NCBI GenBank assembly: GCA_002433675.1
Contig: DJIP01000078.1
Span: forward strand, 1 to 34,632
Source: Halomonas halophila
GTDB taxonomy: Bacteria; Pseudomonadota; Gammaproteobacteria; Pseudomonadales; Halomonadaceae
Reading direction: 5' to 3'
Length of the DNA stretch: 34,632 nucleotides
The notes beneath the pieces were generated by a model that was given only the letters and a program-made list of their open reading frames with translations, was not told the origin of the DNA and did not search any database. A program made the position numbers and the translations under genes. Shown piece after piece: positions 6,294-27,204 of the stretch; the first letter of the stretch is position 1, and every line of letters begins with the position of its first letter.

Positions 6294-6327
6294 AAACGGG
6301 CAAAAGATGGGGGGTAGAAGTTTCGAA

Positions 6328-7962
6328 CTAGTAGAGTTTTTTCTGAGGCGGCCCGGCGAATTCGAGTGGGCCGACACTCTTCATATCGACTTCGATGACT
6401 GCCGGGCCCTTGCGTCCTACCGCTTCGGCAACAATTCCGTGGAAGTCGTCACCCTGGCTTACTTTCCAGTGAGGCAGGTCGAGTGCTTGAGCCAGCGCCT
6501 GGAAGTCCGGCGTGTGCAGATCGTTATAGTACTGCCGGTCGCCAAAGTACTTGCTCTGGATGCCGCGCATGACGCCATAGCCACCGTCATTCATGATGAT
6601 CAAGGTCATGTCGAGGTCTTCCTGCGCGAGGGTGGCCATCTCGCCCACCATCAGCATCAGCCCGCCGTCCCCGACGATGGTGACGACCTTACGGCCTTCG
6701 GCACCCACGGCGCAGCCGATTCCAGTCGCCAGGCCCTGGCCGATGGCGCCTGCGAGGGAGTGGATGTTAGTCAGTGGTAGCTGTGCGGGGAGCAATCTGC
6801 TGCCCCAGGTGCTGCCCGATACTGTGATGTCGCGGACAAAGATTCCGTCGTCGGGTAAAGCAAGACGGATGGCGTCACACAGCTTACTGTACGCTCCGAC
6901 CTGATCACGCAGCGCCCGTTCTGCCTGTTCCACCGCCTGGGTAACTTCCCGGTCTACTTCCGTATCGGGCTCCAAGCTGCCTTCGAGCCTGTCAGCCAAC
7001 CGGGACAACACGTCACTGCACTCGCCGCACAGGAAGGTATCGGCGACATAATTGCGATGGGCTGCAGCAGGGTCGATATCGATCTGTATCAGCGGGCGAG
7101 GCAGTTCCACTGAGTAAGTGCGCGTCTCGTTACTGCGCAGGCGTGAACCAGCCACCAGCATCAGGTCGCTCTTGGCGTACAAATTTTCCACAGAAGGTGA
7201 GCTGTGGAAGGCGCGCAGGCTGCGTGGGTGGCTATCGGGCAGGACGCCGCGGGCGTGAGTACTGGATACCACCGAGATACCGAGATCGGCCAGGCGACGC
7301 ACCGCCTCAGAAGCCTCAAGGCAACCGCCGCCAATCCATAGCATTGGGCGCCGGGCAGCCTTGATCTGGGCTGTGAGTCGATCGATGGCGTCGTCGCTGA
7401 GCCTCGCCGTCCTTGCCGGCTCGACTGGGGGCATCTCCACCCATTCCACCTGGCTGGCCTGGATATCGATGGGGATCTCAAGGCTGACCGGACCTTTAGG
7501 CAGGGTCATTGCCTCCTGAATAGCCCGGTGCAGCAGCGGTACAACCTGTTCGACGGTGGTAGCCCGCCAGGCGCGCTTGGAGCAGGCCTCGAGAAAGCCC
7601 CGTTGGTCCCGGGTTTCGTGTATAAAGCCTGCGTCTCGGTCGAGATAGGCCTTCTCCACCTGACCGGTGATATGCAGCAGAGGGGTCCCGGCATTGAGCG
7701 CCTCGAGCATGGCGCCCACGGCATTGCCAGCTCCGGCACCGGTACTGGTGAGTGCCACACCAAGGCCACCCATTCGGGTATGGCCATCGGCCATGGTCAC
7801 TGCACCGGCCTCACCGCGCGAAGGTACGAAACGAAGGCGCTGGCGCTGGCCAATAGCATCTGCAATGGGAAGGTTGTGAATGGAGATGACGCCATAGACG
7901 GCGGAGACCGAATAGGCCTCCAAGGTGCGGGCGACGGCTTCACCGACGGTGATGGTGGTCAT
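6328..7962 (-). CDS. ThDP-dependent 2-oxo-acid decarboxylase/acetolactate synthase-like enzyme
   Basis: This 544-residue protein has the three-domain layout of thiamin-diphosphate enzymes (acetolactate synthase, benzoylformate decarboxylase). The N-terminal PYR domain has the cofactor-activating Glu in SRGEAGA (E51) and the STGAGAGNAVGA loop. A central Rossmann-like domain shows PMLWIGGGC. The C-terminal domain carries the ThDP/Mg motif GDGG near residue 430, ending in NDGGYG. I chose ATG 7962, preceded by GAGGAATACCAC, over an upstream in-frame ATG at 7989. It is the last gene of the IclR-led unit and follows the aldehyde dehydrogenase by 27 bases. The pairing suggests decarboxylation of a 2-oxo acid to an aldehyde that the dehydrogenase oxidises. 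Ligation chemistry cannot be excluded. Confidence 0.88.
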   Translation of the reverse strand: MTTITVGEAVARTLEAYSVSAVYGVISIHNLPIADAIGQRQRLRFVPSRGEAGAVTMADGHTRMGGLGVALTSTGAGAGNAVGAMLEALNAGTPLLHITGQVEKAYLDRDAGFIHETRDQRGFLEACSKRAWRATTVEQVVPLLHRAIQEAMTLPKGPVSLEIPIDIQASQVEWVEMPPVEPARTARLSDDAIDRLTAQIKAARRPMLWIGGGCLEASEAVRRLADLGISVVSSTHARGVLPDSHPRSLRAFHSSPSVENLYAKSDLMLVAGSRLRSNETRTYSVELPRPLIQIDIDPAAAHRNYVADTFLCGECSDVLSRLADRLEGSLEPDTEVDREVTQAVEQAERALRDQVGAYSKLCDAIRLALPDDGIFVRDITVSGSTWGSRLLPAQLPLTNIHSLAGAIGQGLATGIGCAVGAEGRKVVTIVGDGGLMLMVGEMATLAQEDLDMTLIIMNDGGYGVMRGIQSKYFGDRQYYNDLHTPDFQALAQALDLPHWKVSQGDDFHGIVAEAVGRKGPAVIEVDMKSVGPLEFAGPPQKKLY

Positions 7963-7989
7963 GTGGTATTCCTCTTTGGCCGTGGGCAT

Positions 7990-9456
7990 TCAGTCACACC
8001 AGTTCATGGGGGCGGGGTCGAGCCCCAGGTACAGGCTCTTTTGCTGCATGTAGGCATGAATGCCCTGACGTCCTTTTTCCCGTCCCAGGCCGCTGGCCTT
8101 GTAGCCACCGAACGGGGTGGAGATGGAGAATTTCTTGTAGGTGTTGATCCAGACGGTGCCAGCCTCGAGCCGGCTGGCCAGCGCCAGAGCGCGGCGGTAG
8201 TCGCGGCTCCAGATGCCGGCGGCGAGGCCGTAAGCGTTGTCATTGGCGAGGCCCACCAGTTCGTCGTCATCGTCATAGGGCATCGCCACCAGTACAGGAC
8301 CGAAGATTTCTTCCTGGCAGACGCTGCTGTGGTGAGGCAGGCCCTCGATCAGGGTCGGCAGGTAGAAGCTGCCGTTGGCGAGCCCAGTATCCTCGGGGAT
8401 GCTGCCCCCGGCGCGGATGCAGGCGCCTTCCTCACGGGCTCGATCGACATAGGCGGCCACGCTGTCCCGGTGGCTGTCGCTGATGAGGGGGCCGATGTGG
8501 GTGCCTGGCGTCTCGGGGTGGCCGACGCGAAGACTGCAGGTGATCTGTTCGAGACGCTCCATGGCCTGCTGGTAAAGGCTGCGATGGATGAACAGCCGTG
8601 ACCCGGCAATACAGGCTTGCCCGCCGGAGCTGTAGATGCCGTAGGCGACACCTTTCACCGCCTGCTCCAGGTCAGCGTCGTCACAAATGATGGTCGGCGA
8701 TTTGCCACCGAGCTCCAGGGAGGTGCCAATCAGCTTGTCGGCAGCCACATGAGCCAGATGTCGGCCGGTATTGGTGCCGCCTGTAAAGGAGATTCTGCGG
8801 ATCTTGGGATGACGCACGATGGCCTCGCCAATAACGCTGCCACGACCGGGCAGGACGCTGAGCAGCCCCTTCGGAAGCCCGGCTTCCTCGAACAGTTCGG
8901 CCAATTTCAGCGCCATCAAAGGCGTAGCCTCGGCGGGCTTGAGCACGACCGCGTTGCCACCGGCCAGGGCCGGCGCGACCTTCTGCATTTCACTGGCGAT
9001 CGGAGAGTTCCAGGGGGTAATGGCGGCGATGACGCCGAGTGGCTCGTACTGACTGAACGTCATCAAGTCGGCATTACGCTGGGTTGGCAGCTCTCCTTCC
9101 AGAGTTTCGCAGGCCGCGGCGAAGTAGCGAGCGGTTGCGGCGGCGCTGGACACCAGAGCGCGGGTCTCCGTCAGCGGCTTGCCGTTGTCGCGAGTCTGGA
9201 GGGCGGCGAGTTCCTCGTTGCGTTGCTTGATCAGTTCGCTGACCCGGTAGAGCACTTCGGCGCGTTCGTGAGGCTGACGGGCACGCCAGCTGGGCGCACG
9301 CCAGGCCTGATCGGCGGCCTCCACAGCCTGTTCGACATCGTCCAGGCTGGCGGCGTTCAGCTCGGCATTGACCGAACCATCGGCAGGAAAGCGTGTCACC
9401 AGCCGGTCACCACGCCCTTCGCGCCATTCGCCGCCAACAAAAATCTTGTGAGTCAT
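7990..9456 (-). CDS. NAD(P)-dependent aldehyde dehydrogenase
   Basis: The 488-residue protein is a full-length ALDH-superfamily enzyme. Key residues are all present: N150 in TPWN, K173 in LKPAEATP, E248 in LELGGKSP and the catalytic C282 in GGQACIAG. Later motifs EEIFGPV, GLAAGIWSRD and PFGGYKASGLGREKG are intact. The style is that of the betaine/hydroxymuconic-semialdehyde type, but the substrate cannot be fixed. It lies between aspartate dehydrogenase (29 bases) and the ThDP decarboxylase (27 bases). It probably oxidises the aldehyde released by the decarboxylase. The start at 9456 has AAAGGTG upstream. Confidence 0.93.
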   Translation of the reverse strand: MTHKIFVGGEWREGRGDRLVTRFPADGSVNAELNAASLDDVEQAVEAADQAWRAPSWRARQPHERAEVLYRVSELIKQRNEELAALQTRDNGKPLTETRALVSSAAATARYFAAACETLEGELPTQRNADLMTFSQYEPLGVIAAITPWNSPIASEMQKVAPALAGGNAVVLKPAEATPLMALKLAELFEEAGLPKGLLSVLPGRGSVIGEAIVRHPKIRRISFTGGTNTGRHLAHVAADKLIGTSLELGGKSPTIICDDADLEQAVKGVAYGIYSSGGQACIAGSRLFIHRSLYQQAMERLEQITCSLRVGHPETPGTHIGPLISDSHRDSVAAYVDRAREEGACIRAGGSIPEDTGLANGSFYLPTLIEGLPHHSSVCQEEIFGPVLVAMPYDDDDELVGLANDNAYGLAAGIWSRDYRRALALASRLEAGTVWINTYKKFSISTPFGGYKASGLGREKGRQGIHAYMQQKSLYLGLDPAPMNWCD

Positions 9457-9485
9457 CTGGGCACCTTTTTCGTTGGACGTGACTG

Positions 9486-10280
9486 TTAGAAGGAGACCGG
9501 CTCGAGCGCCTGTCGACAGGCGCGTACCACGGACAGGGCGGCCAGGGTCGAGGTCTTGGGGTTACTCTCCAGGGGGAAGCCGTTGAGTTCGATGGTGAAC
9601 TCGCCGAAGCGTCCGCGTACGTGAATGCAGTGAGTGTTGCGCTGGGTATGCGGGTCTACCGACAGCTTGACCGCGGTGCCGCGCATGCCGAGTCCGGCCA
9701 GGGCGATGGTGGCGGCAACATTGGAGTTGGCCGGGAACAGGCGCGCCGCTTCGCCGGCATCCCCTTCGAAGAACACCGTCCTGTCACACACGGCCTCTAA
9801 ATCGATCAACTTTTCGGCATGGCTACCACGCCAGCTCCGGGGCGCCTTGCAGGCTTCGTAGGTAACTTCGTCGAGGCCACCCTCGCGGGCGGCCGAGAGG
9901 CCGTCCATGCCGGCCACGGCTCCCGACAGTAGCTGCATGCGTCCGCCGCCGTCCCGAGCAGCACCGGCAAGGCGCTGGTACAACGCTTCGTCGGCCAGGG
10001 CTCCGGTGGCCACCACCGCCAGGGTGAGGCCGCGACGCAGCACTGCTTCACCGTGCTCGGCGAGCCCGGGCTGGCCGGCGCATTCCACCACCAGGTCGGG
10101 GGTCTCGGTGCATTGGTCGATACGGCTGAGCACCTCGATCTTGTCGTCAAGCCGCTGGCTCACCTCGGCGGCGAATGCTTCTGGCACCACAACCCAGGCC
10201 AGCTTCATGCCGTCGGGCAGCAGTCGATGTACTTCGGCTCCCATGGCGCCGTAGCCAATCATCAGCAGTCGTTTTGTCAT
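9486..10280 (-). CDS. nadX: L-aspartate dehydrogenase family protein
   Basis: The 264-residue protein begins with a Rossmann motif GYGAMG (9-14) and has family signatures VVECAGQ, LLSGAVAGMDGL, the KAPRSWRG segment, FPANSNVAATIALAG and DPHTQRNTH (D209, N215, H217) of NAD(P)-dependent L-aspartate dehydrogenases (NadX). Those enzymes interconvert L-aspartate with iminoaspartate or oxaloacetate plus ammonia. In some bacteria they feed NAD synthesis, but here no nadA or nadC is nearby. The gene is embedded in an aromatic-type catabolic operon between an SDR and an aldehyde dehydrogenase, so a catabolic role on an amino or imino acid is likelier. The start at 10280 has GGAGACC upstream. Confidence 0.85.
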   Translation of the reverse strand: MTKRLLMIGYGAMGAEVHRLLPDGMKLAWVVVPEAFAAEVSQRLDDKIEVLSRIDQCTETPDLVVECAGQPGLAEHGEAVLRRGLTLAVVATGALADEALYQRLAGAARDGGGRMQLLSGAVAGMDGLSAAREGGLDEVTYEACKAPRSWRGSHAEKLIDLEAVCDRTVFFEGDAGEAARLFPANSNVAATIALAGLGMRGTAVKLSVDPHTQRNTHCIHVRGRFGEFTIELNGFPLESNPKTSTLAALSVVRACRQALEPVSF

Positions 10281-10307
10281 TGGGGGGTCTCCGTGGGGTG
10301 GCCCAGG

Positions 10308-11102
10308 TCACAGATGGCGGTTGAAGCCACCGGACACGTCCAGCGCGGCGCCCGTGGTGAACGAGGCCAGTGGTGAGGCCAGAAATACCAGCGCGCGGGC
10401 AGGTTCTTGCGGGCGTCCGAGACGTCCCATCGGGATGCCGCGTCTGGCAGCGATGGCGGCGGTCCAGTCTTCCCAACTCTGGGAGGTGTCCTCGCGTTGC
10501 TCGAATCGGCGGCGCCACTGGCCGGACTCGACCATGCCGAGCAGAATTGAATTGACCCGAATGCCTTCGACAACCAGCTCGTGGGATAGCGAGTGGGTCA
10601 TGTTGAGCAGTGCTGCCCGGGCCGAAGAGGTGGCGATCATGTGCGGCTCGGGTTGCAGTGCCAGCAGTGAATTGACGCAGGTCAGAGAGCCGATGTCGGA
10701 TGCCGCCAGCTGGGGTCGAAAGGCCGCCAGGGGGTTGAGCACACCGAATAGCTTCAAGCGCGACTCGGATAGCCAGGCATCGGTTGGGGTGTCATCCAGA
10801 TGCGCCACGTATCCTTGACCAGCGTTGGCGATTAGCATGTCGGTACCGCCGAAGGCCTGGTGCACGCGGGCGGCGAATGAGGCACAGTCGCTTTCCTTCA
10901 GCACATCACAGGTCTCAACCAGCAGATTTGCCTCGGGGTAGTCGCGGCCAAGCTCGTTGCGGGCCGACTCAAGTCGTTCGGGGTTGCGGCCGCACAGGGC
11001 CACTTTGGCACCCTGTTCCAGCAGCAGACGAGCGGTTTCCAGGCCGATCCCGGAGGACCCGCCAGTCACCACGGCGACGCGATCTTCAATCATGAAACTC
11101 AT
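10308..11102 (-). CDS. SDR-family protein lacking the catalytic Tyr and Lys
   Basis: This 264-residue short-chain dehydrogenase/reductase keeps the NAD(P)-binding TGGSSGIG (13-20), NAG (93-95) and the C-terminal FTTGAALDVSGG. The active-site Ser is at 145, but the YxxxK pair is replaced: Thr at 158 and Arg at 162 (ATSSAR). The other SDR in this locus has S145, Y158 and K162 at the same positions, which makes the contrast clear. The Rossmann fold is intact, so it may bind nucleotide but catalyse differently or have a non-redox role. I place the start at ATG 11102 (MSFMIEDR), with GAGGAAGATACC upstream, not at the longer frame opening at 11342. It follows the hydrolase by 14 bases. Confidence 0.88.
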   Translation of the reverse strand: MSFMIEDRVAVVTGGSSGIGLETARLLLEQGAKVALCGRNPERLESARNELGRDYPEANLLVETCDVLKESDCASFAARVHQAFGGTDMLIANAGQGYVAHLDDTPTDAWLSESRLKLFGVLNPLAAFRPQLAASDIGSLTCVNSLLALQPEPHMIATSSARAALLNMTHSLSHELVVEGIRVNSILLGMVESGQWRRRFEQREDTSQSWEDWTAAIAARRGIPMGRLGRPQEPARALVFLASPLASFTTGAALDVSGGFNRHL

Positions 11103-11116
11103 GGTATCTTCCTCGA

Positions 11117-11962
11117 TCAATGCTCGGTCGCCGCTGTCAGCAGTGGACCTGCGAAACTGTCCACGGCCGTGGCGAAGGCCTCGGGCGCGTCGATGTAGCT
11201 GGCGTGACCGGCGTGCGGAATTCCCCGGCACGGCAGATTCAGCCGCTGGGCAAGGGCCTGACAGGATGGCGGTGGAGTAATGCGGTCCTCGTCGCCGCAC
11301 AGCACCGAGGCGGGGACCTGCAGGCCGCTTGGCAGGTAGCATTCCAGTGCATCATTGGCGAGCATCCAGCTGGCCTGGGCGAATCCCTCGACATGGAGCC
11401 TCTGCATCCCCTCGCGGACACGGGCGACGTCCTCTTCCCGGGCGCCGTCGCGCAGCAGTCGTGGTGCACGCGCTGCTGCGTAGGCCTGGTGTCCTTGCTC
11501 GGCAAGCACCGTCCAACGGCTGCGGTAGACCTCGTCACGTTTGCTGGGATCCGCGTCGCGGTAGCCTAGTGCAGGGTCCGCCAGCACCACGCCTGCCAGG
11601 CGCTCCGGGCGCCGCGCCGCATAGGCGCTAGCGATCATGGCGCCGAGGGAATGGCCTACCACTACGCAGCGCTCAATACCCAGCGCCGACAGCCAGTCGT
11701 CGAGGCGCTCGGCGTAGTCACAGGCTCTGGGGCGGGGCTCCGCCAAGGGCTGGCTGTCGGCGTAGCCCGGGGCGTCCCAGGCCAGCAGCCGGTAGTGGCT
11801 TAGGTAGGGGACTACCGGTACCCAGGACGACGACCCCGAGCTGATGCCGTGCAGCAGCACGATCGTCGGTCCCGCACCGTGTTCGCGGTAGTCCAACCGG
11901 CCGGCCGGGAGCGCCAGCTGTTGGCGCTCCAAGGACGCTTGACTCGGAGTCCGGGTCGTCAT
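11117..11962 (-). CDS. Alpha/beta-fold hydrolase (meta-cleavage-product hydrolase type)
   Basis: The 281-residue protein has the oxyanion-hole HG (LLHGISSGSSSW, near 38), the nucleophile elbow GHSLG (S105), the acid region in LCGDEDRITPP and the catalytic His in PHAGHASYID. The size and sequence style suit C-C hydrolases of ring meta-cleavage products, although esterase or lactonase activity is possible. The start ATG 11962 has AAGGAGACAGGCC upstream; the frame continues open to 12058 within the cupin gene but without support. It lies 11 bases after the cupin stop, consistent with one operon. Confidence 0.88.
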   Translation of the reverse strand: MTTRTPSQASLERQQLALPAGRLDYREHGAGPTIVLLHGISSGSSSWVPVVPYLSHYRLLAWDAPGYADSQPLAEPRPRACDYAERLDDWLSALGIERCVVVGHSLGAMIASAYAARRPERLAGVVLADPALGYRDADPSKRDEVYRSRWTVLAEQGHQAYAAARAPRLLRDGAREEDVARVREGMQRLHVEGFAQASWMLANDALECYLPSGLQVPASVLCGDEDRITPPPSCQALAQRLNLPCRGIPHAGHASYIDAPEAFATAVDSFAGPLLTAATEH

Positions 11963-11973
11963 GGCCTGTCTCC

Positions 11974-12498
11974 TTATCCGTTGCGCTTGACCTTGGACAG
12001 CGGGTGATCGTCTGGATAGGTCGGGATCTGCGGCTTGGGAGTTCCCAGCATCACGCACATCAGGGCTTCCTCTTCGCTCTCGTTGAGCAGGCCGCGATAG
12101 ATACCGGGGGGCACGGAGATCACATCGCGCTCTTCGAGCACCGTCTCGGTGGTGTTGTCACCATCCTGAATAAACAGGCGAATGGTGCCCTTCAGCACGA
12201 AGAAGACCTCTTCTACGTCGTCATGCACATGCAGGGGGCCTTCACACTTGGAGGGCAGCACCATGGTGGAGAAGGTGAAGTGTTCCGCCGGAATGGTATT
12301 GGTATCAGTGGCGACGCCGGTGGCGCCGGTGCCGATGTAGCGCATCTGGGCACGGCGATATTTTGGGTCGAAGTCGGCCTGGAACTTCAGCGCGTTCCAG
12401 TCGTACTTGCGGCCCTTGAAGCGAGCGATGCGAGACTCGATCCAGTCGCTGAGGGATAGATCGTCGGGCTTGTTCCAGGTGGAGAACTGTTGGGACAT
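11974..12498 (-). CDS. Cupin-domain protein
   Basis: The 174-residue single cupin has first-motif ligands H90, H92 and E96 (GPLHVHDDVEEVFF) and the second motif PPGIYRGLLNE. In that second motif the usual metal-binding His is Arg (R135). With only three of four usual ligands it may still bind a metal, as in some cupin dioxygenases and isomerases, or be non-catalytic. It is preceded by a good ribosome binding site (GAGGAAACACACC). The position next to the hydrolase and the VOC dioxygenase suggests a step on a ring-cleavage intermediate. The substrate is unknown. Confidence 0.85.
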   Translation of the reverse strand: MSQQFSTWNKPDDLSLSDWIESRIARFKGRKYDWNALKFQADFDPKYRRAQMRYIGTGATGVATDTNTIPAEHFTFSTMVLPSKCEGPLHVHDDVEEVFFVLKGTIRLFIQDGDNTTETVLEERDVISVPPGIYRGLLNESEEEALMCVMLGTPKPQIPTYPDDHPLSKVKRNG

Positions 12499-12533
12499 GG
12501 TGTGTTTCCTCGAAATCGCGCAGCTAAAGATGA

Positions 12534-12612
12534 AGAGGCCCTTGTGCGCGTCACCCGTTGGCCGTCATGGCGTCTTCGGGACAAGGGCTCTCCGGCCGGT
12601 CACCAACGGGTG
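12534..12612 (-). repeat. Two interleaved inverted repeats in the VOC-cupin spacer
   Basis: AGAGGCCCTTGT (12534-12545) pairs with ACAAGGGCTCT (12581-12591, one bulged base). CACCCGTTGG (12552-12561) pairs with CCAACGGGTG (12603-12612). The order A-B-A'-B' means the stems cannot nest; they would form a pseudoknot or alternative structures in the mRNA upstream of the cupin gene. Confidence 0.7.
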
Positions 12613-12685
12613 GCCGGTGGTGTGGTCAATCTCCAGGCAACTAACTGCCAGCGTGCCGGGGGTTCCGGTCGGGACTGTTGGCGGT

Positions 12686-13633
12686 TCAGGCCTCGGACTT
12701 CTTTTGGCGGCGAGTTTCGGCGTCGATGCCGCCCTCGACCGCCCACTCGGTGAAAGACTCGAGCGAGTGCTGCATTTCCCGCGGGGTCCAGGCCTCAGTG
12801 AGAAAGTCTTCGTTGGTGTAGTACTCGAAGGCGCCGCCGAGGGGACTGTTGACGTACCAGAAGTAGGCCGAGGAAATCGGATGGCGTCCCGGCCCGAGGA
12901 AGGTGCTCCACTGGCGTCGGTTCATTGCCAGGCCGCCCCCGATCACCTCATGGATATCGCGCACGGTGAAGGCGACGTGGTTGAGCCCGGCACCACGATG
13001 GGGAAGCTTGAGCAGAAACAGATTGTGATGGCCGCCGCGTGCCTGCATGCGCAGGAAAACGGCACGGTCGGTGTAGCGATCGGAAACCGAAAACCCCAGG
13101 CGCTCGCGGTAGAACGACTCGCAGGCTTCGAGGTCATCGACGAAGAACACCGTGTGTCCGATGCCCACCGGCGAGGCCTGATCGTAGACGGGACTTGGCT
13201 GGTCCACGCGGGACATGTCGCCGTATTGATTGATCGGCGTGACATCCAGCTTGACCTCGCGCAGACGGCTCTCGCGGATGCGCACAGCAAGACCGTTGGG
13301 GTCGCGGCATTCGAGACTGTCACCATGGTCGGTAAAGCCAGGTTGGTCCCGCAGGCTTTCGCGCAGCGTGTCCAACGCTTTGGCTGAGGCGGCCCCCCAG
13401 GTCATGCGACGCAGGGTAGAACCTTCCTCGAAGGCGGCCGGTAGTGTCGGGTCGTCGATGGTGCGAATGACCAGGCGGGCGCCGTCGAGGGTTTCAAAGG
13501 TACTTTGCTCGGAGCCGCTGACCCGAGTCAGGCCGAAGTCTTCGGCGAATCGCTCGCCGGTTACCACTTCCTCGACGCCGAAATCCAGTTCTTCGATACC
13601 GACGATACTGCCGGCTGTGTCGCGTGTTGTCAT
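12686..13633 (-). CDS. Two-domain VOC-family extradiol-type ring-cleavage dioxygenase
   Basis: The 315-residue protein has the size and two-module layout of type I extradiol dioxygenases. The C-terminal module carries the metal ligands: H160 (GIGHTVFFV), H219 (LNHVAFTV) and E270 (GGAFEYYT). The N-terminal module is degenerate, as is usual. It should use Fe(II) or Mn(II) to cleave a dihydroxylated ring. I chose ATG 13633, preceded by GGGAGAGCCCC; the open frame continues to 13756 without support. It is the first structural gene after the IclR regulator and probably acts on the product of the Rieske oxygenase and dehydrogenase encoded upstream. The substrate is not predictable by eye. Confidence 0.88.
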   Translation of the reverse strand: MTTRDTAGSIVGIEELDFGVEEVVTGERFAEDFGLTRVSGSEQSTFETLDGARLVIRTIDDPTLPAAFEEGSTLRRMTWGAASAKALDTLRESLRDQPGFTDHGDSLECRDPNGLAVRIRESRLREVKLDVTPINQYGDMSRVDQPSPVYDQASPVGIGHTVFFVDDLEACESFYRERLGFSVSDRYTDRAVFLRMQARGGHHNLFLLKLPHRGAGLNHVAFTVRDIHEVIGGGLAMNRRQWSTFLGPGRHPISSAYFWYVNSPLGGAFEYYTNEDFLTEAWTPREMQHSLESFTEWAVEGGIDAETRRQKKSEA

Positions 13634-13840
13634 GGGGCTCTCCCGCTGGACATGACCCTCAGGCAGGGGCGCTTGCTGGTCATGTGTCAGCTCTTCGCTT
13701 TCAGGTTTCAGGAAATTCCGGGCGTAGCGGTCCCCTGCGTGCCACCTCGATGGCACGACGGTCGTATGGAGATCACGGTGTCAGCGTCGTGGCGAGCCCG
13801 GATGGTCGCCACGGCAGGGAATCAAAACGTGGTGGCTATC
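13634..13840 (-). other. Spacer with two hairpins between iclR and the VOC gene
   Basis: The 207-bp spacer contains GTGCCA-N6-TGGCAC (13739-13756) and GTGGCGA-N10-TCGCCAC (13789-13812). Neither has a U tract on the minus strand. They may be operators or mRNA processing structures that set regulator and enzyme levels apart. I found no convincing promoter of its own here. Confidence 0.45.
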
Positions 13841-14647
13841 TCATCCGGTTTCGTCCTTCTGCGTGGCCTGATAGCCCAGCAGGCTAGAGATAGAGCTGGC
13901 CGCCCTGGCGACTTCCAGGCGCAGCGGTTCTCGGTCGCTTTCGGGAATCTCGTGCATCGGCACCATGATGCTGACAACGCCCTGTACCTCGCCGTCATGG
14001 TTGAACAGCGGGTACACGATCGAAGAGATGCCAAACTGGAAGAAGGACTCGCCGATTACGTAACCGCGCGTCCGATCCTCCTGGACCATTTCCCAGAGTG
14101 CGTCACGATAGATCGGCGAGCCGGGGTCGCTGTCGGGGAGCTGTTGTTCGGGGTAGAGCGCCTCGAAGTCCTGGCGATCAACACCGGTCAGAAGCATCCG
14201 CCCCAACGAGGTGCGATGCACCGGAAGGCGGGTTCCCACATTGACCTGACGGTTCTGCGCATTGGTGGCGCTGACCCGCGCGACGTAGATCACGTCTCGT
14301 TCATCGCGAATGGCGATGTGGCTCGAGCATCCTGTCGTGTCACGCAATGCCTCGATGACCGGCTGACCCACCTGCACCACATCCAGTGAAGTGACGTACT
14401 CAAAGCCGAGTCGCAGCACGCTGACGCCCAGAGAATAGAGCCCGCTGGTAGGGTGACGCCGGACGAAACCCATATGCTCCAGGGTCTGCAGGGCGCGATA
14501 GGCAGTGGCCTTGGGAATATCCACGAGCTTGAGAATCTCGGCAAAGCCCATCTCCCGGTGATGTCTGCTCAATACCATCAGGATCAGCAGGCCCCTCTCA
14601 AGGCCGGGGATCAGGTACTTGCGTGATGTCTTGTCGGTGTCGCTCAT
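13841..14647 (-). CDS. IclR-family transcriptional regulator of the ring-degradation locus
   Basis: The 268-residue protein has an N-terminal winged helix-turn-helix (about residues 14-75: LERGLLILMVLSRH, then IPKATAYRALQTLEHMGFV) and the IclR effector domain (HRTSLGRMLLTG, TRGYVIGESFFQFGISSI, GVVSIMVP). A ribosome binding site CAGGAGACCGCC precedes the ATG at 14647. Its own promoter and that of the Rieske operon share an operator half-site, so it likely represses both units and is released by a pathway compound. Position downstream of the transcription starts argues for repression. Confidence 0.93.
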   Translation of the reverse strand: MSDTDKTSRKYLIPGLERGLLILMVLSRHHREMGFAEILKLVDIPKATAYRALQTLEHMGFVRRHPTSGLYSLGVSVLRLGFEYVTSLDVVQVGQPVIEALRDTTGCSSHIAIRDERDVIYVARVSATNAQNRQVNVGTRLPVHRTSLGRMLLTGVDRQDFEALYPEQQLPDSDPGSPIYRDALWEMVQEDRTRGYVIGESFFQFGISSIVYPLFNHDGEVQGVVSIMVPMHEIPESDREPLRLEVARAASSISSLLGYQATQKDETG

Positions 14648-14740
14648 GGCGGTCTCCTGATATCGGTCGGCGTTTCTGCTTGGTGCAACGTTACCGGATA
14701 TCGACCGGTGAACCGATAGGGTGCTGCAGTGCTTTGGTTT

Positions 14741-14804
14741 AAATATGAAACAATGGTTCTTATTTGATACGTTTAAAATTAGTCGTGCATTGACCTTCTG
14801 TCAA
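14741..14804 (-). promoter_or_regulatory. Promoter and IclR-type operator in front of iclR
   Basis: On the minus strand a perfect -35 TTGACA (14804-14799) is followed after 17 bp by TAATTT (14781-14776), a weak -10, giving a start near 14769. An imperfect palindrome follows at 14741-14765: plus-strand AAATATGAAAC, AAT, then GGTTCTTATTT (9 of 11 positions paired). The same half-site is found at 20009-20019 in the same arrangement. Confidence 0.72.
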
Positions 14805-14865
14805 GAAAATCGTGTTCGCTATTGTTTTGCAAGCTGTTGTTTTGTAAATAAAATTTTTCTCCCAT

Positions 14866-14905
14866 GCCTCCTCCTCGGGGTGTTTCCCGACCTGGAGGAG
14901 GAGGC
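14866..14905 (-). terminator. Probable terminator after the MFS gene
   Basis: GCCTCCTCCTC (14866-14876) and GAGGAGGAGGC (14895-14905) form a perfect 11-bp stem, with an inner CGGG/CCCG stem. On the minus strand it is followed by AAAAATTTTA about 8 bases on. It separates the Rieske-MFS unit from the iclR promoter. Confidence 0.65.
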
Positions 14906-14929
14906 TCCGAAGCTTTTACGTGGGCCCGA

Positions 14930-16204
14930 TCAGTAGCGGCGAATCAGAGGGATCAGCACGCTAGCACCGAGGAAGGCCATGACCATCATGAACATCAGGC
15001 CCGCAGTCATGTTGCCGGTAGCCGCGATCAGCGCGCCGATCAAGACGGGCACCAGCGCCCCCGAGAAATTTCCCAGCCCATTGAAGATGCCGCCGGCGGT
15101 GGCACTGACGTCGGAAGACGTCGCCTTGGCCAGCAGTGCGAACACATTGGGTGCGCCGAAGCCCCACATGGCGGCGCTGAACGACATGGCCGCGATCATT
15201 GCCCAGTTTGAGCCATCGATGGACAGCACCAGCCACAGGCCCAGTCCTGCACCGAGCAATGAAATTGAGCACAGCAAGGCTCGGCGATCGAAGCGGTCGG
15301 AGGCGAAGGCCCCGATCACCTCGCCCACCAGCATGGCGATGAAGGGAAGTGACGAGAACACGCCGGCCTGGTCGAGATTGATGCCCTTGTCCTGTACTAG
15401 GTAGGTGGGCAGCCAGCTGTTGAGTCCCCACAGGTAGGCCAGGAAAGCGACGTTGAAAAGGCAGATGGACCAGAACGACCAGCGCTTGAGCAGCTTGGCG
15501 GTGGCAGCCCGGTGGGTGGATAGCGGCACGTGGGAACGATCGGTCTGCTGGAGCGCGGGAGAACGTGTCGTGACGTCCAGCTTGCGGAAGACCAGATAGA
15601 CGATAAGCACCACCGGAATCGTCAGTAGCGCAATGGCGAAGAAGCTGGTGCGCCAGCCGAACTGATCGACCACCCAGATGGTGAAAGGAAAGCCGAGGGT
15701 CGCTCCGATGGGGGTGCCGAGCAGCCACAGCATGGTCGCACGGGCTTGTTCACGCGGGGGAAACAACCGCTTGACGATCGTGTAGGCCACCGCAAATAGG
15801 GGCCCCTCGGCGATTCCCAGCAGGATGCGTAGTCCCAGCAGCACGCCGTAGTCGTCGACGAACCCCATGACGGCCATCAGTGCCGCTGTCATGAACAACA
15901 TGGCATAGAGGCAGCTTTTGGGGCTGAAGATGTCACCCAGAAAGCCCAGAAACATCGACGAGGCGCCGTAGGACAGCAGGAACCCCGTCATCAGCATGCC
16001 GAGTTTGGTGGCTTCTCCGGTCAGGCCGAGGTCAGCCTGAAAGGCGGGGGTGGAAATCAGCACCGCAATGCTGATCTTGTCGAAGAACGAGAGAACCACA
16101 CAGGCCAGCAGCGCCAGGGGCACCAGCCAGCGGCGTACTCCCGTACTGTCTTCGATGCCCTGTGCGCTGCCGGGCGCAGGGGTGGTAGCGGCGGAGTGAA
16201 CCAT
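14930..16204 (-). CDS. MFS transporter, anion:cation symporter (ACS) type
   Basis: The 424-residue membrane protein has about 12 predicted transmembrane helices. The first is LVPLALLACVVLSFFDKISIAVL; the helix 2-3 loop carries a GFLGDIFSPK signature and helix 4 shows RILLGIAEGP. These features are typical of the ACS family, which takes up organic acids such as glucarate, galactonate, 4-hydroxybenzoate-like or phthalate anions. It is the last gene of the Rieske unit and is likely the importer of the acidic aromatic substrate; the cargo is inference. The start has TAAGGTAATGAC upstream. Confidence 0.9.
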   Translation of the reverse strand: MVHSAATTPAPGSAQGIEDSTGVRRWLVPLALLACVVLSFFDKISIAVLISTPAFQADLGLTGEATKLGMLMTGFLLSYGASSMFLGFLGDIFSPKSCLYAMLFMTAALMAVMGFVDDYGVLLGLRILLGIAEGPLFAVAYTIVKRLFPPREQARATMLWLLGTPIGATLGFPFTIWVVDQFGWRTSFFAIALLTIPVVLIVYLVFRKLDVTTRSPALQQTDRSHVPLSTHRAATAKLLKRWSFWSICLFNVAFLAYLWGLNSWLPTYLVQDKGINLDQAGVFSSLPFIAMLVGEVIGAFASDRFDRRALLCSISLLGAGLGLWLVLSIDGSNWAMIAAMSFSAAMWGFGAPNVFALLAKATSSDVSATAGGIFNGLGNFSGALVPVLIGALIAATGNMTAGLMFMMVMAFLGASVLIPLIRRY

Positions 16205-16279
16205 GTCATTACCTTATTGTTGTAGCGTTGTCAGGCTGTGTCGTCAGGGAGGCGAGCGCTTTTCCGGCGATGGGCCCGG

Positions 16280-17485
16280 TCAGCGCAGTTGCATGAGGTT
16301 GAAATCGGGATTGGCCAGGGCCTTGGCATCGAGTTCCCGGGATGCGGCCAGCCAGCGCTTGCCCAGCTTGATCGCACGGGGCTGATCGAAGGCCACCATC
16401 TGCACCAGTCGGTCGTCGGCGTCGAGATAGAAGAACACCGGTCCTTGGGGATCGGAGCGCTGCACGCAGCGTGTCTCGCCACGGGGGATGCCGAGGATCT
16501 GAATGTTCACACCGTGCTGGTCTGACCATAGCCAGGCGGGTTCGTCATAATGGGCGTCCTGGCCGAGCATTGCCCTTGCCGCCACCTGTGCCTGATTCTG
16601 GGCATAGGCCCATGACTGAAGACACAGTCCCAGGTGGGGGTGTTGGGACACATCGCCGGCGGCGAATACCGCCGGGTCTGAGGTGCGACCCGCTGCGTCG
16701 ATGACGATACCCTGGGCCGTATCGAGACCTGCAGCGCGGGCCAGTTCCAGGTTGATATCGACCCCGACTCCCACCACCACGCAATCGTAGGGGGGCTGGG
16801 TCTGGCCATCGGCGCTTAAGCAGACCCGGCCATCGCTGTCGCCGTCGAGCTGGATGTCCTGACGTGCCAGGCGCAGGCCAACGCCATTTCGCAGATGCAG
16901 GGCCTGGATATACTCGGCGACTTCCGGACCTATGCTACGTCCGCATAGTGACGCAGCGCGCTCGAACACATCCACTTCGATACCTAACTTGCGAGCGCTG
17001 GAGGCGATTTCCAGGCCGATCCAGCCGCCGCCGATGATGCCGACCCGCCGACTGGTGGACAGGCGTTGCCGGAGCCTGGTGGCATCGTCCCAGGAGCGCA
17101 GGGTCAGGACGTTGTCGATCTTGGCCCAGGCGTTCGTAGGCAGGCGCGGTCGGCTCCCCGTGGCGATCAGCAGTCGGTCGTAGACGAGCCTGCTACCGTC
17201 ATTGAGCTCCACTTCCCGGGCGTCACGGTGGATTTCGGTGGCTCGGCACGGGCGGCGCCAGTCGATGTTCAAGGCCGCCTGGCTGTCGTCCGGGAACAGC
17301 CTCGGCAGCGGTTCCTGGTCGACGATCACTCCCTTGGACAACGGTGGACGCTCATAGAAGTCGTGTGGCTCGTCGGCGATGACCGTCAGCCGGCCCTCGT
17401 AACCTTCGCTGCGCAGTGTCTTGCAGGCGTGTCCACTGGCCTGACCGGCGCCGATGATGACGATACTTTCGATTGTGCTTGTCAT
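16280..17485 (-). CDS. FAD-dependent NAD(P)H-ferredoxin reductase of the Rieske system
   Basis: The 401-residue protein has an FAD-binding GAGQASG (12-18), the ERPPLSKG motif typical of oxygenase-linked ferredoxin reductases, ATGSRPR, a second Rossmann motif GIIGGGWIGLE for NAD(P)H and the FAD motif FAAGDV. The C-terminal domain is present. The protein would pass electrons from NAD(P)H to the Rieske ferredoxin (19652-19969) and on to the oxygenase, completing a three-component system. It follows the SDR by 12 bases and precedes the MFS gene by 75 bases. Confidence 0.93.
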   Translation of the reverse strand: MTSTIESIVIIGAGQASGHACKTLRSEGYEGRLTVIADEPHDFYERPPLSKGVIVDQEPLPRLFPDDSQAALNIDWRRPCRATEIHRDAREVELNDGSRLVYDRLLIATGSRPRLPTNAWAKIDNVLTLRSWDDATRLRQRLSTSRRVGIIGGGWIGLEIASSARKLGIEVDVFERAASLCGRSIGPEVAEYIQALHLRNGVGLRLARQDIQLDGDSDGRVCLSADGQTQPPYDCVVVGVGVDINLELARAAGLDTAQGIVIDAAGRTSDPAVFAAGDVSQHPHLGLCLQSWAYAQNQAQVAARAMLGQDAHYDEPAWLWSDQHGVNIQILGIPRGETRCVQRSDPQGPVFFYLDADDRLVQMVAFDQPRAIKLGKRWLAASRELDAKALANPDFNLMQLR

Positions 17486-17497
17486 GTTCCCCGGGCC

Positions 17498-18253
17498 TCA
17501 GTTGAAGACGAAACCGCCGTTGACCGGAATGACCTGGCCAGTGACGAATTTCGACCAGTCGGACAGGAGGTACAGAATGGTGCCGTCCACGTCATCGGGC
17601 TGCTGCTCACGCTTCAACGCGCGGCCCTGGGCGTAGAAGTCATAGCGCTCCTGGGGAACGTACTCGGTGGCCTCGCAGTGAGTCAGCCCCGGGGCGACGG
17701 CGTTGACACGAATTTCGCGCTCGCCCAATTCCCTGGCCATGGCGCGTGTCATGGAAATCACCGCGCCCTTGCTGGCGACGTAGGCCATCAACCGGGGGGC
17801 GCCCCATAGTGCAGTGTCCGAGGCCAGATTGACGATCTGGCCTCCTCCCTCTTCTTCTAACAGCGGCACTGCTGCGCGGGTCATCAGCCACAGACCGCGG
17901 ATGTTGACGTTCATGACGCGATCCCACAGCGCCATGTCGTAATCCATCAGCGTCTCGCCACCCACGCCGGTGGCGATGGCGGCATTGTTGACCAGACCGT
18001 GAAGGGGGCCGGCGGCCGCGATCGCGGAAAAGCCAGCGTCGATGGATGCAGAATCGGCCTGGTCAATGACCAGTGTCTCGACGTTGGCTCCGCTGCTGCG
18101 AAGACACTTGGCGGTGGCCTCTAGCTCGGTGGCGAGAATGTCACTGATGACCAGCCGGGCGCCTTGTGCGGCGGCAGCCTGGGCTACGCTGCGGCCGAGA
18201 CCGCGGGCGGCACCGGTCACCAGGATGCGCTTGTTCTCGAGCATCCGGGACAT
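17498..18253 (-). CDS. SDR-family dehydrogenase, probable cis-dihydrodiol or alcohol dehydrogenase
   Basis: The 251-residue protein is a classical short-chain dehydrogenase with TGAARGLG (13-20), NNAA (89-92), S145, Y158 and K162 (YVASK), and a C-terminal VTGQVIPVNGGF. All catalytic residues are present. It begins one base after the Rieske oxygenase stop, so the two are very probably translationally coupled. By position it may rearomatise the dihydrodiol made by the oxygenase. Other alcohols are possible if the oxygenase is a monooxygenase. Confidence 0.92.
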   Translation of the reverse strand: MSRMLENKRILVTGAARGLGRSVAQAAAAQGARLVISDILATELEATAKCLRSSGANVETLVIDQADSASIDAGFSAIAAAGPLHGLVNNAAIATGVGGETLMDYDMALWDRVMNVNIRGLWLMTRAAVPLLEEEGGGQIVNLASDTALWGAPRLMAYVASKGAVISMTRAMARELGEREIRVNAVAPGLTHCEATEYVPQERYDFYAQGRALKREQQPDDVDGTILYLLSDWSKFVTGQVIPVNGGFVFN

Positions 18254-18254
18254 G

Positions 18255-19286
18255 TCAGGCCACCTGCTGGCGCTGGGCCAACTGCTGCTTGGCCATCTTC
18301 AGCATCACCCGGCGCAGGCGAGACAAGCCGACGTCATGTTGATAGAGGTTTTCGTGATGGCGAGCTTCCGGTGCCAGGTTCTCGAGGATGATGCGATCCT
18401 GTTCCAGCACGTTCCAATGCAACTGCTCGAGCTTGTTGCGGTAGAAGAAGCGCCACACCTGACGCTGCCAGCCGCTGACCTTGCGCACGCGCCAGAAGAA
18501 TACCCGGGTGTTGTCTTTGTCCTCCGGCACGGCCATGCCGACGATCCAGAAGGGGCCGCCTGGACCGAAGCGCTGCTGGTAGGGGATCGAAAGCCGCAGC
18601 CACAGGCAATCGGTATTGCCGTATTCCACCCAGTCGAAGTTGACACCGGTCTGCCCGGTCTTCTTGAAGATAAAACCGTGCTCGGTAGGTTCCAGCACCA
18701 TCTCCGCCTGGCGATCCCCTTCGGCCATGGAGTGGGAGTCCGAGTGCAAGTAGGTGCCGTGCATGGGGTCCATGACGTTGTCGATGGCGTACTGGTAGTT
18801 GCACTTCCAGGTGGCGGTACACAGGAAGTGGCCATAGCTCTCTTCGTCGGTCAGTTGCTCTGGGAGCGCCAACTCGCGGGGCGCTTCATCCGCAGTGGTA
18901 GCGAAGTAGACGAAGATGGCGCCGTGGGCCTCTTTGATCGGATAGTGGCGCACGCAGTTCTGACCAACCAGCGGACTCCCGCTGATGGCAGGAACATCGC
19001 AGACCTCGCCCTCACCATTGACTTCGACACCGTGGTACCAGCAGGCCAGACGATTGCCCAGGTTCCAGCCCTTGGACAGGCGTGCACCTCGGTGGGGGCA
19101 GCGGTCCTCGATGGCGTGCAGGGTGCCGTCGTGATCACGCCACAACGCCAGGTTCTCGCCCAGGCGAGTGATGCCGATAGGGTCGCTGCCGACTTCCCAG
19201 CTGGCGGCGACGGGGTACCACAGGGAACGCAGTCCACTGTCCAGGTAGTCCTGAACGGAAGTGTCGATGGAGGTTGCAGTGGTCAT
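18255..19286 (-). CDS. Rieske non-heme iron oxygenase, alpha subunit
   Basis: The 343-residue protein has a Rieske [2Fe-2S] site C63-x-H65 and C82-x2-H85 (CPHRGA, CWYHG) and a mononuclear iron site with D173, H176, H181 (DPMHGTYLH) and D297 (EQDRIILE). This matches the alpha-only oxygenases of the phthalate or carbazole dioxygenase type; no beta subunit gene is present. The start at ATG 19286 has CGAGGTCGAGTC upstream, and the longer frame to 19331 has no support. Electrons would come from the adjacent ferredoxin and reductase. It could be a dioxygenase or a demethylating or hydroxylating monooxygenase. The substrate is unknown. Confidence 0.93.
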   Translation of the reverse strand: MTTATSIDTSVQDYLDSGLRSLWYPVAASWEVGSDPIGITRLGENLALWRDHDGTLHAIEDRCPHRGARLSKGWNLGNRLACWYHGVEVNGEGEVCDVPAISGSPLVGQNCVRHYPIKEAHGAIFVYFATTADEAPRELALPEQLTDEESYGHFLCTATWKCNYQYAIDNVMDPMHGTYLHSDSHSMAEGDRQAEMVLEPTEHGFIFKKTGQTGVNFDWVEYGNTDCLWLRLSIPYQQRFGPGGPFWIVGMAVPEDKDNTRVFFWRVRKVSGWQRQVWRFFYRNKLEQLHWNVLEQDRIILENLAPEARHHENLYQHDVGLSRLRRVMLKMAKQQLAQRQQVA

Positions 19287-19345
19287 GACTCGACCTCGTT
19301 GTTCGATATTCGGGGGGAGGAGAAGTGTCAACGATGACGTAGAGA

Positions 19346-19648
19346 TCAGCCCAGAACGGCCATCTCCTGGAGAAAGCTCTCCTGGGTCCAGGGCTCACCG
19401 TGGCGATCATGGTGCTGGCGCTCGTTGAGGCCTTTGACCAGTTCGTCGAGCTCGGTCGAGCCCGCAGCAAAGATGTCTTCCAAGGCTTCGATCAGGGACA
19501 GTTCGAAGCCCCCGGGTACGCTGGAGCGGGTCTGCCATACTGGATTGGCGAAGCCTCCCGGTGCCTCGATGCTGCCCTGTCCGGGCTCACTGGAGGGGAT
19601 GATGCTCTGCCAATTCTTCAGGTGGGGGTTGTAGTCCTGCTGGGTCAT
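19346..19648 (-). CDS. Small protein with possible recombinase-like helix-turn-helix fold, Rieske-associated
   Basis: This 100-residue soluble protein (MTQQDYNPHLKNWQS, then NPVWQTRSSVPG and a helical SLIEALEDIFAAGSTELDELVKGLNE) ends with a short PWTQESFLQEMAVLG. I recall similar small proteins, annotated as having a recombinase-like helix-turn-helix domain, beside Rieske oxygenase genes; that is memory, not a search. The gene is tightly packed, starting 3 bases after the ferredoxin stop with GAGGAGGACTGAAC as a strong ribosome binding site, so it is certainly expressed with the oxygenase. The function is unknown. It could be an accessory subunit or assembly factor as easily as a DNA-binding protein. 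Confidence 0.8.
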   Translation of the reverse strand: MTQQDYNPHLKNWQSIIPSSEPGQGSIEAPGGFANPVWQTRSSVPGGFELSLIEALEDIFAAGSTELDELVKGLNERQHHDRHGEPWTQESFLQEMAVLG

Positions 19649-19651
19649 GGT

Positions 19652-19969
19652 TCAGTCCTCCTCTCGGGGCTTGAGCTGCACTTCGTCGTCGATGATGCGT
19701 ACCGGGTAGACGTGAAGATCACGATCCGCCGGCTCGCGCAGACACTTGCCGGTACGAATGTCGAAGGTGGCTTCATGAAGCGGACATTCGACCTGTCCAT
19801 CCTCGACAAACCCTTGTGACAGCAGGGCGTAAGCGTGGGGACAGACGTCTTCGAGTGCGTAGTACTCGCCATCCAGCACGTAGACGCCGACTTCCTTGCC
19901 ATCGAGCTTGGTGGAGTAGGGGAAATCTTCCTTGACCTCGCTAGTCCTGCAGACAGTGGTCCAACTCAT
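19652..19969 (-). CDS. Rieske-type ferredoxin of the oxygenase system
   Basis: The 105-residue protein has a single Rieske cluster site, C43-x-H45 (VCPHAY) and C62-x2-H65 (ECPLHEATFD), as in oxygenase ferredoxins such as those of biphenyl or carbazole systems. It would shuttle electrons from the FAD reductase to the oxygenase. The ATG at 19969 follows GAGGACCGCAC; the frame is open upstream to 20161, but that stretch holds the promoter and has no protein features. It is the first gene of its unit, with a leader of about 73 bases. Confidence 0.93.
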   Translation of the reverse strand: MSWTTVCRTSEVKEDFPYSTKLDGKEVGVYVLDGEYYALEDVCPHAYALLSQGFVEDGQVECPLHEATFDIRTGKCLREPADRDLHVYPVRIIDDEVQLKPREED

Positions 19970-20008
19970 GGTGCGGTCCTCATTGGTCGGGACAGGTCTT
20001 GTTGTGTC

Positions 20009-20076
20009 AAATATGAAACTTTGTTTTTTATATGACTCTTTGAGCGTCAGTATAGTGATCGCTGAAAAGCTGTCAA
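20009..20076 (-). promoter_or_regulatory. Promoter and IclR-type operator of the Rieske operon
   Basis: On the minus strand TTGACA (20076-20071) is followed after 16 bp by TATACT (20054-20049), a near-consensus sigma-70 promoter with a start near 20042. Downstream lies AAATATGAAAC (20009-20019, plus strand), TTT and GTTTTTTATAT (20023-20033), a palindrome with 8 of 11 pairs. The layout matches the iclR promoter at 14741-14804. Confidence 0.8.
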
Positions 20077-20132
20077 ATACTACATAGTAATGGATTTGTA
20101 ATAGAGTCTTTCTACAGGCACGCGAAGAGGTG

Positions 20133-23769: not shown

Positions 23770-23795
23770 AGAGAAGGCGGCCCAGCCCCGCTGGC

Positions 23796-27200: not shown

Positions 27201-27204
27201 CGGC

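Follow-up and report, generated by a model that had tools for sequence, protein, structure and literature searches.

A conserved fourteen-gene locus of Halomonas halophila as a candidate pathway for kynurenate degradation via the 7,8-diol

Kynurenate (4-oxoquinoline-2-carboxylate) is a tryptophan breakdown product which acts on nerve and immune receptors of the host, and its breakdown by bacteria was described in cell extracts some sixty years ago. A run of fourteen minus-strand genes, lying at positions 6328-19969 of a 34,632-nucleotide stretch of Halomonas halophila DNA (assembly GCA_002433675.1, contig DJIP01000078.1; hereafter the window), is proposed here to encode a single pathway degrading kynurenate by the 7,8-diol route, a reading to which we give a probability of about 0.6. 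The gene set is widespread and uncharacterised, and the proposal provides it with a specific and testable assignment. If correct, about ten genes could be named in many genomes, the removal of kynurenate by communities of the gut and lung would have a genetic marker, and bacteria of the gut, urinary tract and lung could remove a neuro- and immune-active metabolite of their host.

Gene content and proposed pathway

Pfam and NCBIfam searches have borne out the fourteen genes and families named in a preliminary description of the window. The extent given there, 6328..20076, takes in all the genes; the ferredoxin gene starts at 19969, and a promoter begins at position 20076. The genome to which the window belongs (G000, 4.28 Mb) is fragmented into 400 contigs and 87% complete. 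In order of reading, the genes are:

19652..19969, minus strand: Rieske-type ferredoxin, 105 aa (PF00355, 2.1e-22; start taken from orthologues)
19346..19648, minus strand: small HTH_62 ('recombinase-like helix-turn-helix') protein of 100 residues (PF20552, 9.7e-24)
18255..19286, minus strand: Rieske oxygenase alpha subunit of the VanA_C type (PF00355 and PF19112), proposed kynurenate 7,8-dioxygenase
17498..18253, minus strand: canonical short-chain dehydrogenase/reductase (SDR1; Pfam, NCBIfam), proposed cis-dihydrodiol dehydrogenase
16280..17485, minus strand: ferredoxin--NAD reductase (Pyr_redox_2 and Reductase_C by Pfam; AndAa/HcaD-like, under their NCBIfam cut-offs)
14930..16204, minus strand: major facilitator superfamily (MFS) importer (PF07690, 6.1e-48; galactonate-transporter group, under cut-off)
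13841..14647, minus strand: IclR-family regulator (Pfam; PcaR/PobR group, under cut-off)
12686..13633, minus strand: type I extradiol dioxygenase of the VOC family (Pfam; relatives are homoprotocatechuate 2,3-dioxygenases), proposed 8,8a-cleaving enzyme
11974..12498, minus strand: single-domain cupin (PF07883), proposed to act in water addition or pyridine ring opening
11117..11962, minus strand: alpha/beta hydrolase (Pfam), proposed to set iminosuccinate free by C-C or lactam hydrolysis
10308..11102, minus strand: second, atypical short-chain dehydrogenase/reductase with Ser-Thr-Arg (SDR2; NF005468, 424 bits, cut-off 266), proposed side-chain C=C reductase
9486..10280, minus strand: L-aspartate dehydrogenase (AspDH) family protein (PF01958; NF009828; 2dc1, 109 bits), proposed iminosuccinate reductase
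7990..9456, minus strand: aldehyde dehydrogenase (ALDH; PF00171, 7.3e-166), nearest to betaine-aldehyde and hydroxymuconic-semialdehyde types
6328..7962, minus strand: thiamine diphosphate (ThDP)-dependent enzyme (NF005470, 814 bits, cut-off 495), proposed 2-oxo acid decarboxylase

Start sites were set from aligned orthologues and from purine runs ahead of the genes, and four of them probably lie inside the listed open reading frames (ORFs), namely those of the ThDP enzyme (7962), the extradiol enzyme (13633), the oxygenase (19286) and the ferredoxin (19969). A small ORF at 16209-16529, which has no Pfam match and overlaps the reductase gene, was dropped as a gene. The intergenic gaps are shorter than 80 bp except for those between cupin and VOC genes (187 bp), VOC gene and iclR (207 bp) and iclR and MFS gene (282 bp), and because of these three wide gaps the window copy may be transcribed as several units.

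The classical 7,8-diol route for kynurenate is reportedly that described for Pseudomonas fluorescens by Taniuchi and Hayaishi in 1963, and three of its enzymes are so far known only by their activity (EC 1.14.99.2, 1.3.1.18 and 1.13.11.10). In the scheme proposed here, the three-component Rieske system would convert kynurenate into its 7,8-cis-dihydrodiol, and SDR1 would turn the latter into 7,8-dihydroxykynurenate. The extradiol enzyme would then cut between C8 and C8a, yielding 4,6-dihydroxypicolinate with a 3-carboxy-3-oxopropenyl side chain (-CH=CH-CO-COOH). The product of such a cut is a vinylogous 2-oxo acid, whose further breakdown calls for C=C reduction, ThDP-dependent decarboxylation and aldehyde oxidation, and for no hydratase or aldolase: SDR2 would reduce the double bond of the side chain, the ThDP enzyme would decarboxylate the 2-oxo acid so formed, and the ALDH would oxidise the resulting aldehyde to 5-(2-carboxyethyl)-4,6-dihydroxypicolinate. 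The cupin and the alpha/beta hydrolase are the two genes remaining and are thus assigned to two additions of water, which would give glutarate and iminosuccinate, an ending that is our own proposal. Finally, the iminosuccinate, which corresponds to the AspDH substrate in its imino form, would be reduced by AspDH to L-aspartate. The atom balance, worked out by hand, closes (C9H9NO6 + 2 H2O = glutarate C5H8O4 + iminosuccinate C4H5NO4).

Families for every step of the 7,8-diol pathway are present together, and each enzyme gene can be matched to a step. The P. fluorescens or 'quinoline' pathway fits these families in the order and type of its steps as far as 5-(2-carboxyethyl)-4,6-dihydroxypicolinate; it is known from extracts, and the ending in glutarate and iminosuccinate differs from the older one. 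That the set is complete for this pathway and supplies genes for all three EC activities, together with a C=C-reducing SDR carrying Thr/Arg and a new ending in which the ring nitrogen leaves as L-aspartate, and that bacteria of gut, urinary tract and lung harbour it, is in our estimation evenly balanced. The window's genome also holds a match to CsiD, the glutarate hydroxylase (454 bits), which lends mild support.

Several expectations of the preliminary description agree with this scheme. It had noted the absence of a hydratase/aldolase pair, and Pfam and NCBIfam scans found neither family among the fourteen genes; a ring-degradation locus in which the ThDP enzyme and ALDH act on a 2-oxo acid, and an imino acid as substrate of AspDH, are both consistent with the results. 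Of its two guesses at the starting compound, the nitrogen-bearing ring is consistent too, and 4-oxoquinoline-2-carboxylate is a likelier substrate than an amino-acid-conjugated aromatic.

Three compound names of the route, two picolinate intermediates and the diol, have a literature source: in two metabolomics papers, route intermediates are named beside 7,8-dihydroxykynurenate (PMC11364965) and under tryptophan metabolism (PMC10543884), and a third paper attributes the kynurenate route to P. fluorescens (PMC5610271). Among the top-ranking matches in the openly licensed literature, neither a gene assignment for kynurenate breakdown nor a functional account of the locus was found.

Among better known systems, meta-cleavage pathways of the biphenyl/naphthalene type share with the locus a three-component Rieske enzyme, a cis-diol dehydrogenase, extradiol cleavage and an alpha/beta hydrolase; they differ in that the locus has the ThDP enzyme, ALDH and AspDH in place of a hydratase and aldolase of the 2-hydroxypenta-2,4-dienoate type. 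Another comparison is offered by the lum pathway for lumichrome (from riboflavin) in Nocardioides simplex, which likewise joins a Rieske dioxygenase, an extradiol enzyme, a ThDP decarboxylase and a cupin in the degradation of an N-heteroaromatic, and whose cupin LumY is a hydratase (PMC12746152). The text of that paper describes an alpha/beta-subunit Rieske enzyme, a ThDP enzyme of two subunits whose target is the ring, a xanthine-oxidase step and an ending by hydratase and retro-aldolase; the word dehydrogenase is absent from it. Neither the alpha/beta Rieske arrangement nor the two-subunit ThDP enzyme nor a xanthine-oxidase subunit is found in the window locus.

Conservation of the gene set and of its active sites

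Eighty-six loci were examined, 80 from genome contigs (the best 80 of at least 577, skewed to enterobacteria and Acinetobacter) and six from plasmid records, a family being scored as present when it matched at more than 60 bits within the fetched stretch. The oxygenase, SDR1, VOC enzyme, cupin, hydrolase, SDR2, AspDH and ALDH occur all together in 74 of the 86, from gamma-, beta- and alphaproteobacteria, and these complete loci also contain the ThDP gene (66/74) and the reductase (72/74). The preliminary description had taken the cluster for two separate units joined; this gene-neighbourhood comparison does not support that view, and the fourteen genes, to judge from their content, are one widely conserved pathway set. 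As regards the 12 remaining loci, eight are of the Halomonas/Saccharospirillum type and have other genes after the first half, where the fetched stretch then ends; L029 stops at the contig end, L084 has no match past the hydrolase and L085 none to SDR1. The last, from Candidatus Symbiopectobacterium (L062), has matches only for ferredoxin, HTH_62 protein and oxygenase in the fetched stretch and is perhaps the decaying copy of a symbiont.

The arrangement varies among groups. All fourteen families stand in one block in Klebsiella, with a largest gap of 88 bp, and likewise together in Acinetobacter, where iclR is divergent. The enzymes are also retained in Caballeronia, Novosphingobium, Paracoccus and Nitratireductor, whose loci differ in gene order, three of the four with other importers, and those of Paracoccus and Nitratireductor include a flavodoxin-type partner. 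The locus is also found in Serratia, Enterobacter and Comamonas-like genomes. Among the best 80 of at least 577 loci, the closest oxygenase is that of a Halomonas metagenome-assembled genome (L012, 91%). When flanking genes were clustered, the big enterobacterial groups among the 40 largest fitted the speA/speB/metK neighbours annotated in Klebsiella, and the Halomonas-type groups included a GntR regulator and a flavin adenine dinucleotide (FAD) monooxygenase.

An even sample of the phylum contained the oxygenase (E 1e-60 or better) in 15 of 398 genomes; in the 14 besides the window's, the nine enzymes lie nearby in 12; of the other two, one has no ALDH in the vicinity and one has its oxygenase at a contig end. 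The same oxygenase was found in 8 of 158 genomes of the family taken for Pseudomonadaceae and in 14 of 61 relatives of a Comamonas-like genome (the family names of sampled genomes, Pseudomonadaceae, Comamonas-like and alpha-type, being our attribution). The distribution is therefore patchy, and the gene set travels together.

The small HTH_62 gene adjoins the oxygenase gene in enterobacterial, Acinetobacter, Halomonas-type and Burkholderiaceae-type loci, occupies another place within the cluster in Paracoccus and Nitratireductor, and was not matched in the loci of Comamonas-like and pseudomonad type that were searched. Contig C35 of the Comamonas-like genome G196, which has the locus on a different contig, bears two genes for tryptophan 2,3-dioxygenase separated by about 8 kb.

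Some pseudomonads had already been mentioned, in the preliminary description, as carrying ALDH, aspartate dehydrogenase and decarboxylase genes together, and pseudomonad-type loci were indeed found. The locus appears to be the same as PA3498-PA3514 of P. aeruginosa PAO1, on a mapping of locus tags and gene order which we presume to be right. An oxygenase fragment of P. aeruginosa (P0201, 54% to that of the window), fused to a RidA-family domain, and the gene order in two pseudomonad-type genomes (G708 and G736) agree with the order presumed for PAO1. The G708 locus differs from the window in having a BenC-like reductase, an SsuA-like ABC binding protein and a RidA-family gene, and no HTH_62 match. 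Proteins of the RidA family are imine/enamine deaminases; of five pseudomonad-type loci fetched, four have a gene for one next to that of the oxygenase, which fits a free imine or enamine in the pathway, and a search of a further set of loci gave only weak matches, in L047. In PMC12771364, PA3498-PA3514 are called 'two contiguous uncharacterized operons'.

Catalytic residues were compared in the aligned orthologues, leaving out rows under an identity floor (28-50%, depending on the gene) or not covering the residues, and they are intact across the set, SDR2 with its Thr/Arg being the exception. The oxygenase has the Rieske ligands (CxH/CxxH), the N-x2-D-x2-H-x4-H motif and the distal Asp in 104/104 orthologues; with its Rieske and mononuclear 2-His-1-Asp ligands, and with a ferredoxin and a reductase encoded beside it, it has the features of a three-component system, and some relatives use other redox partners. 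Equally invariant are Ser-Tyr-Lys in SDR1 (103/103), the His-His-Glu iron ligands of the extradiol enzyme (94/94), HxH...EE in the cupin (94/94), Ser-Asp-His in the hydrolase (93/93) and the catalytic Glu of the ThDP enzyme (84/84). The extradiol enzyme also has the second-sphere His, and its second-sphere Tyr position is occupied by Pro in 6/94 and by Phe in 2/94. The hydrolase is related to 3kxp, an acetamidomethylene-succinate hydrolase acting on an enamide, and to 3v48 (RutD, a putative aminoacrylate hydrolase). AspDH, of the true type by family matches, has the AspDH C-domain, the conserved His and the NPKTS motif, with His-Asn-Lys in 92 of 93 orthologues and His-Asn-Arg in one; enzymes of this group from P. 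aeruginosa PAO1 and Ralstonia eutropha are said to show true aspartate dehydrogenase activity.

SDR2 lacks the classical Ser-Tyr-Lys and has Ser-Thr-Arg in 93/93 orthologues. Its nearest solved relative is Q9HYA2 (3lf1; 288 bits, the next being 112), which we take to be a P. aeruginosa protein and whose paper reportedly describes an atypical catalytic centre. A parallel to the loss of Tyr may exist in isopiperitenone-reductase-like SDRs, which have lost the catalytic Tyr and reduce a C=C bond.

The preliminary description had allowed that the Rieske protein might group with a characterised enzyme; among solved structures and NCBIfam families, no such grouping was found. The best solved match is carbazole dioxygenase (85 bits, over residues 32-207, half of the protein), and the best NCBIfam match reaches 80 bits against a cut-off of 600. 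This low and partial similarity bears on the first alternative to be considered, namely a nitrogen-free aromatic acid degraded by meta-cleavage, with AspDH turning the oxaloacetate formed in the pathway into aspartate. The automatic name of the oxygenase, phenylpropionate dioxygenase-like, and the likeness of the extradiol enzyme to homoprotocatechuate dioxygenase would suit such a substrate; but that name comes with little similarity to any solved enzyme, and the retention of AspDH across three classes, like the RidA gene of the pseudomonad-type loci, is hard to explain without an imine, so that we consider a nitrogen-free acid quite improbable.

Kynurenate and alternative substrates

A number of observations weigh against kynurenate. 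Its choice as substrate follows from chemical logic, and the roles given to SDR2 and to the cupin are guesses; moreover, the cupin match in alpha-type genomes is a distant, longer protein with 29-31% identity. The old kynurenate work is said to have found glutamate, alanine and acetate as end products, none of them a direct product of the ending proposed, and of 20 genomes with the locus, 6 have a CsiD match above the cut-off. As for the supply of kynurenate from tryptophan, where oxygenase and tryptophan dioxygenase (TDO) occur in the same genome they are on different contigs in 18 of 19 cases (nine from the phylum sample and eleven from one alpha-type family, G208 being in both). Homogentisate dioxygenase, used as a control, is associated with the locus in the alpha-type family as well (13/13 against 156/235, p = 0.006). 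Some relatives, furthermore, have an SsuA-like binding protein or an arylsulfatase-like gene, and the A. baumannii expression data given below point towards sulfur. Finally, P. aeruginosa CHA secretes kynurenate, a kynU mutant reaching 100 uM at 24 h (PMC4938989); the locus is rare in P. aeruginosa. From the old kynurenate work, a title on glutamic acid synthesis is cited in PMC11354673.

TDO itself was found in 9/15 locus-bearing against 98/383 other genomes of the phylum sample, and in 11/13 against 105/235 of the alpha-type family. This co-occurrence (p = 0.006 and 0.005) was dropped as evidence for the substrate, the homogentisate dioxygenase control being equally associated. In G208, the locus has a TDO gene some 10 kb away, together with an ORF judged by eye to resemble kynureninase.

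The genes accompanying the set in some genomes suggest that the entry substrate could be a near relative of kynurenate, such as xanthurenate (8-hydroxykynurenate), its 8-sulfate or quinaldate, with the lower pathway as proposed. FAD monooxygenases of the 3-hydroxybenzoate 6-monooxygenase/salicylate hydroxylase group, under cut-offs, are encoded in the loci of Saccharospirillum (L018, 13260-14381) and Nitratireductor (L011, 11670-12800), similar ORFs were seen by eye in G208, G238 and G379, and an enzyme of this kind could hydroxylate an 8-hydroxyquinoline at C7. An arylsulfatase-like gene, also under cut-offs, is present in L018 (17428-19011), and ORFs which look alike on inspection occur in L013, L060 and G208. 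Neither gene, however, is found in the window's cluster or in the annotated Klebsiella and Acinetobacter stretches, and the canonical SDR1 fits a dihydrodiol intermediate; a near relative as the entry compound in place of kynurenate is unlikely. The L018 and L011 variants also have other importers, and the FAD monooxygenase and the L018 arylsulfatase-like gene suggest a second, hydroxylated or sulfated, entry substrate there.

A little less likely again is some other aromatic, such as a heteroaromatic with a sulfonate or sulfate group, degraded for the sake of its nitrogen or sulfur, AspDH serving to assimilate the ammonia released. The cupin, AspDH and ALDH of Acinetobacter baumannii (ABUW_2946, 2943 and 2942) rise by about 2 log2 on methylcobalamin, in a table group with sulfonate and taurine genes (PMC12892962), an increase which may mirror the growth condition rather than a regulon. 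The SsuA-like binding protein of G708 (under cut-off) and an NMT1-type one in Novosphingobium point in the same direction, but SsuA/NMT1 proteins form a broad group, an MFS gene is what many loci contain in their stead, and no gene of a recognised desulfonating family recurs in the set. With these alternatives considered, degradation of kynurenate itself is retained as the preferred reading.

Regulation and neighbouring genes

The putative control elements of the window are:

20049..20076, minus strand: strong sigma-70-like promoter, TTGACA-16-TATACT, before the ferredoxin gene (from sequence)
20007..20018, minus strand: putative operator for IclR, TTTCATATTTGA, a short way downstream from the promoter (exact match)
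14741..14765, minus strand: inverted repeat AAATAAGAA-N7-TTCATATTT, 8/9 paired, before iclR and related to the operator at 20007 (motif comparison)
20077..20090, strand not assigned: palindrome resembling ATACTATATAGTAT with 2 mismatches, at the -35 box, a possible site for the GntR protein (comparison of loci)
20199..21116, minus strand: GntR-family regulator in front of the ferredoxin gene (PF00392)

The operator-like sequence TTTCATATTTGA occurs exactly at 20007 and with one mismatch inside the repeat before iclR, two matches in the window against 0.00 expected. With up to one mismatch and within 280 bases around the ferredoxin start, it is found in 39/83 loci having a ferredoxin match, against 60/6210 background windows, many of the loci being close relatives; before iclR it is found in 6/80, five of them from the Halomonas/Saccharospirillum group. 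Comparison of upstream regions gave 17/20 for the ferredoxin/iclR pair, shuffles giving at most 15. No operator-like site was seen at the window's cupin and VOC promoters, and a motif common to the upstream regions of these two genes was rejected, since no pairwise match differed by more than one from the highest value in ten shuffles. The GntR gene and the -35 palindrome like ATACTATATAGTAT accompany each other in 9/9 loci of the Halomonas/Saccharospirillum group. The main promoter may be controlled by IclR and, in the Halomonas/Saccharospirillum clade, also by the GntR protein.

The single block of Klebsiella suggests that the set is co-regulated there. In A. baumannii, A1S_0956-0958 (by name AspDH, ALDH and an acetolactate-synthase-like protein) are listed as induced by mucin, with values of 2.2-2.4 (PMC5757984). 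These genes and ABUW_2942-2946 probably represent the same locus, as judged from names and spacing.

On the left end of the contig, phage genes for a terminase large subunit (PF03237/PF17289/PF06056) and a portal protein (PF04860) at 350-3198 (plus strand) indicate a prophage or remnant adjoining the catabolic locus. Between them and the cluster lies a YhgA-like putative transposase gene (PF04754; 3933-4925, minus strand), and an ORF of 321 residues at 5338-6303 (minus strand), with no Pfam or NCBIfam match, may be no gene. Finally, a second catabolic-looking run is found at 21169-33914 (minus strand), with two ALDHs, a hydroxyisobutyrate-dehydrogenase-like protein, a GMC oxidoreductase, a galactonate-dehydratase-like enolase and a zinc-dependent alcohol dehydrogenase, as well as a sodium:solute symporter and LysR, IclR and TetR regulators.

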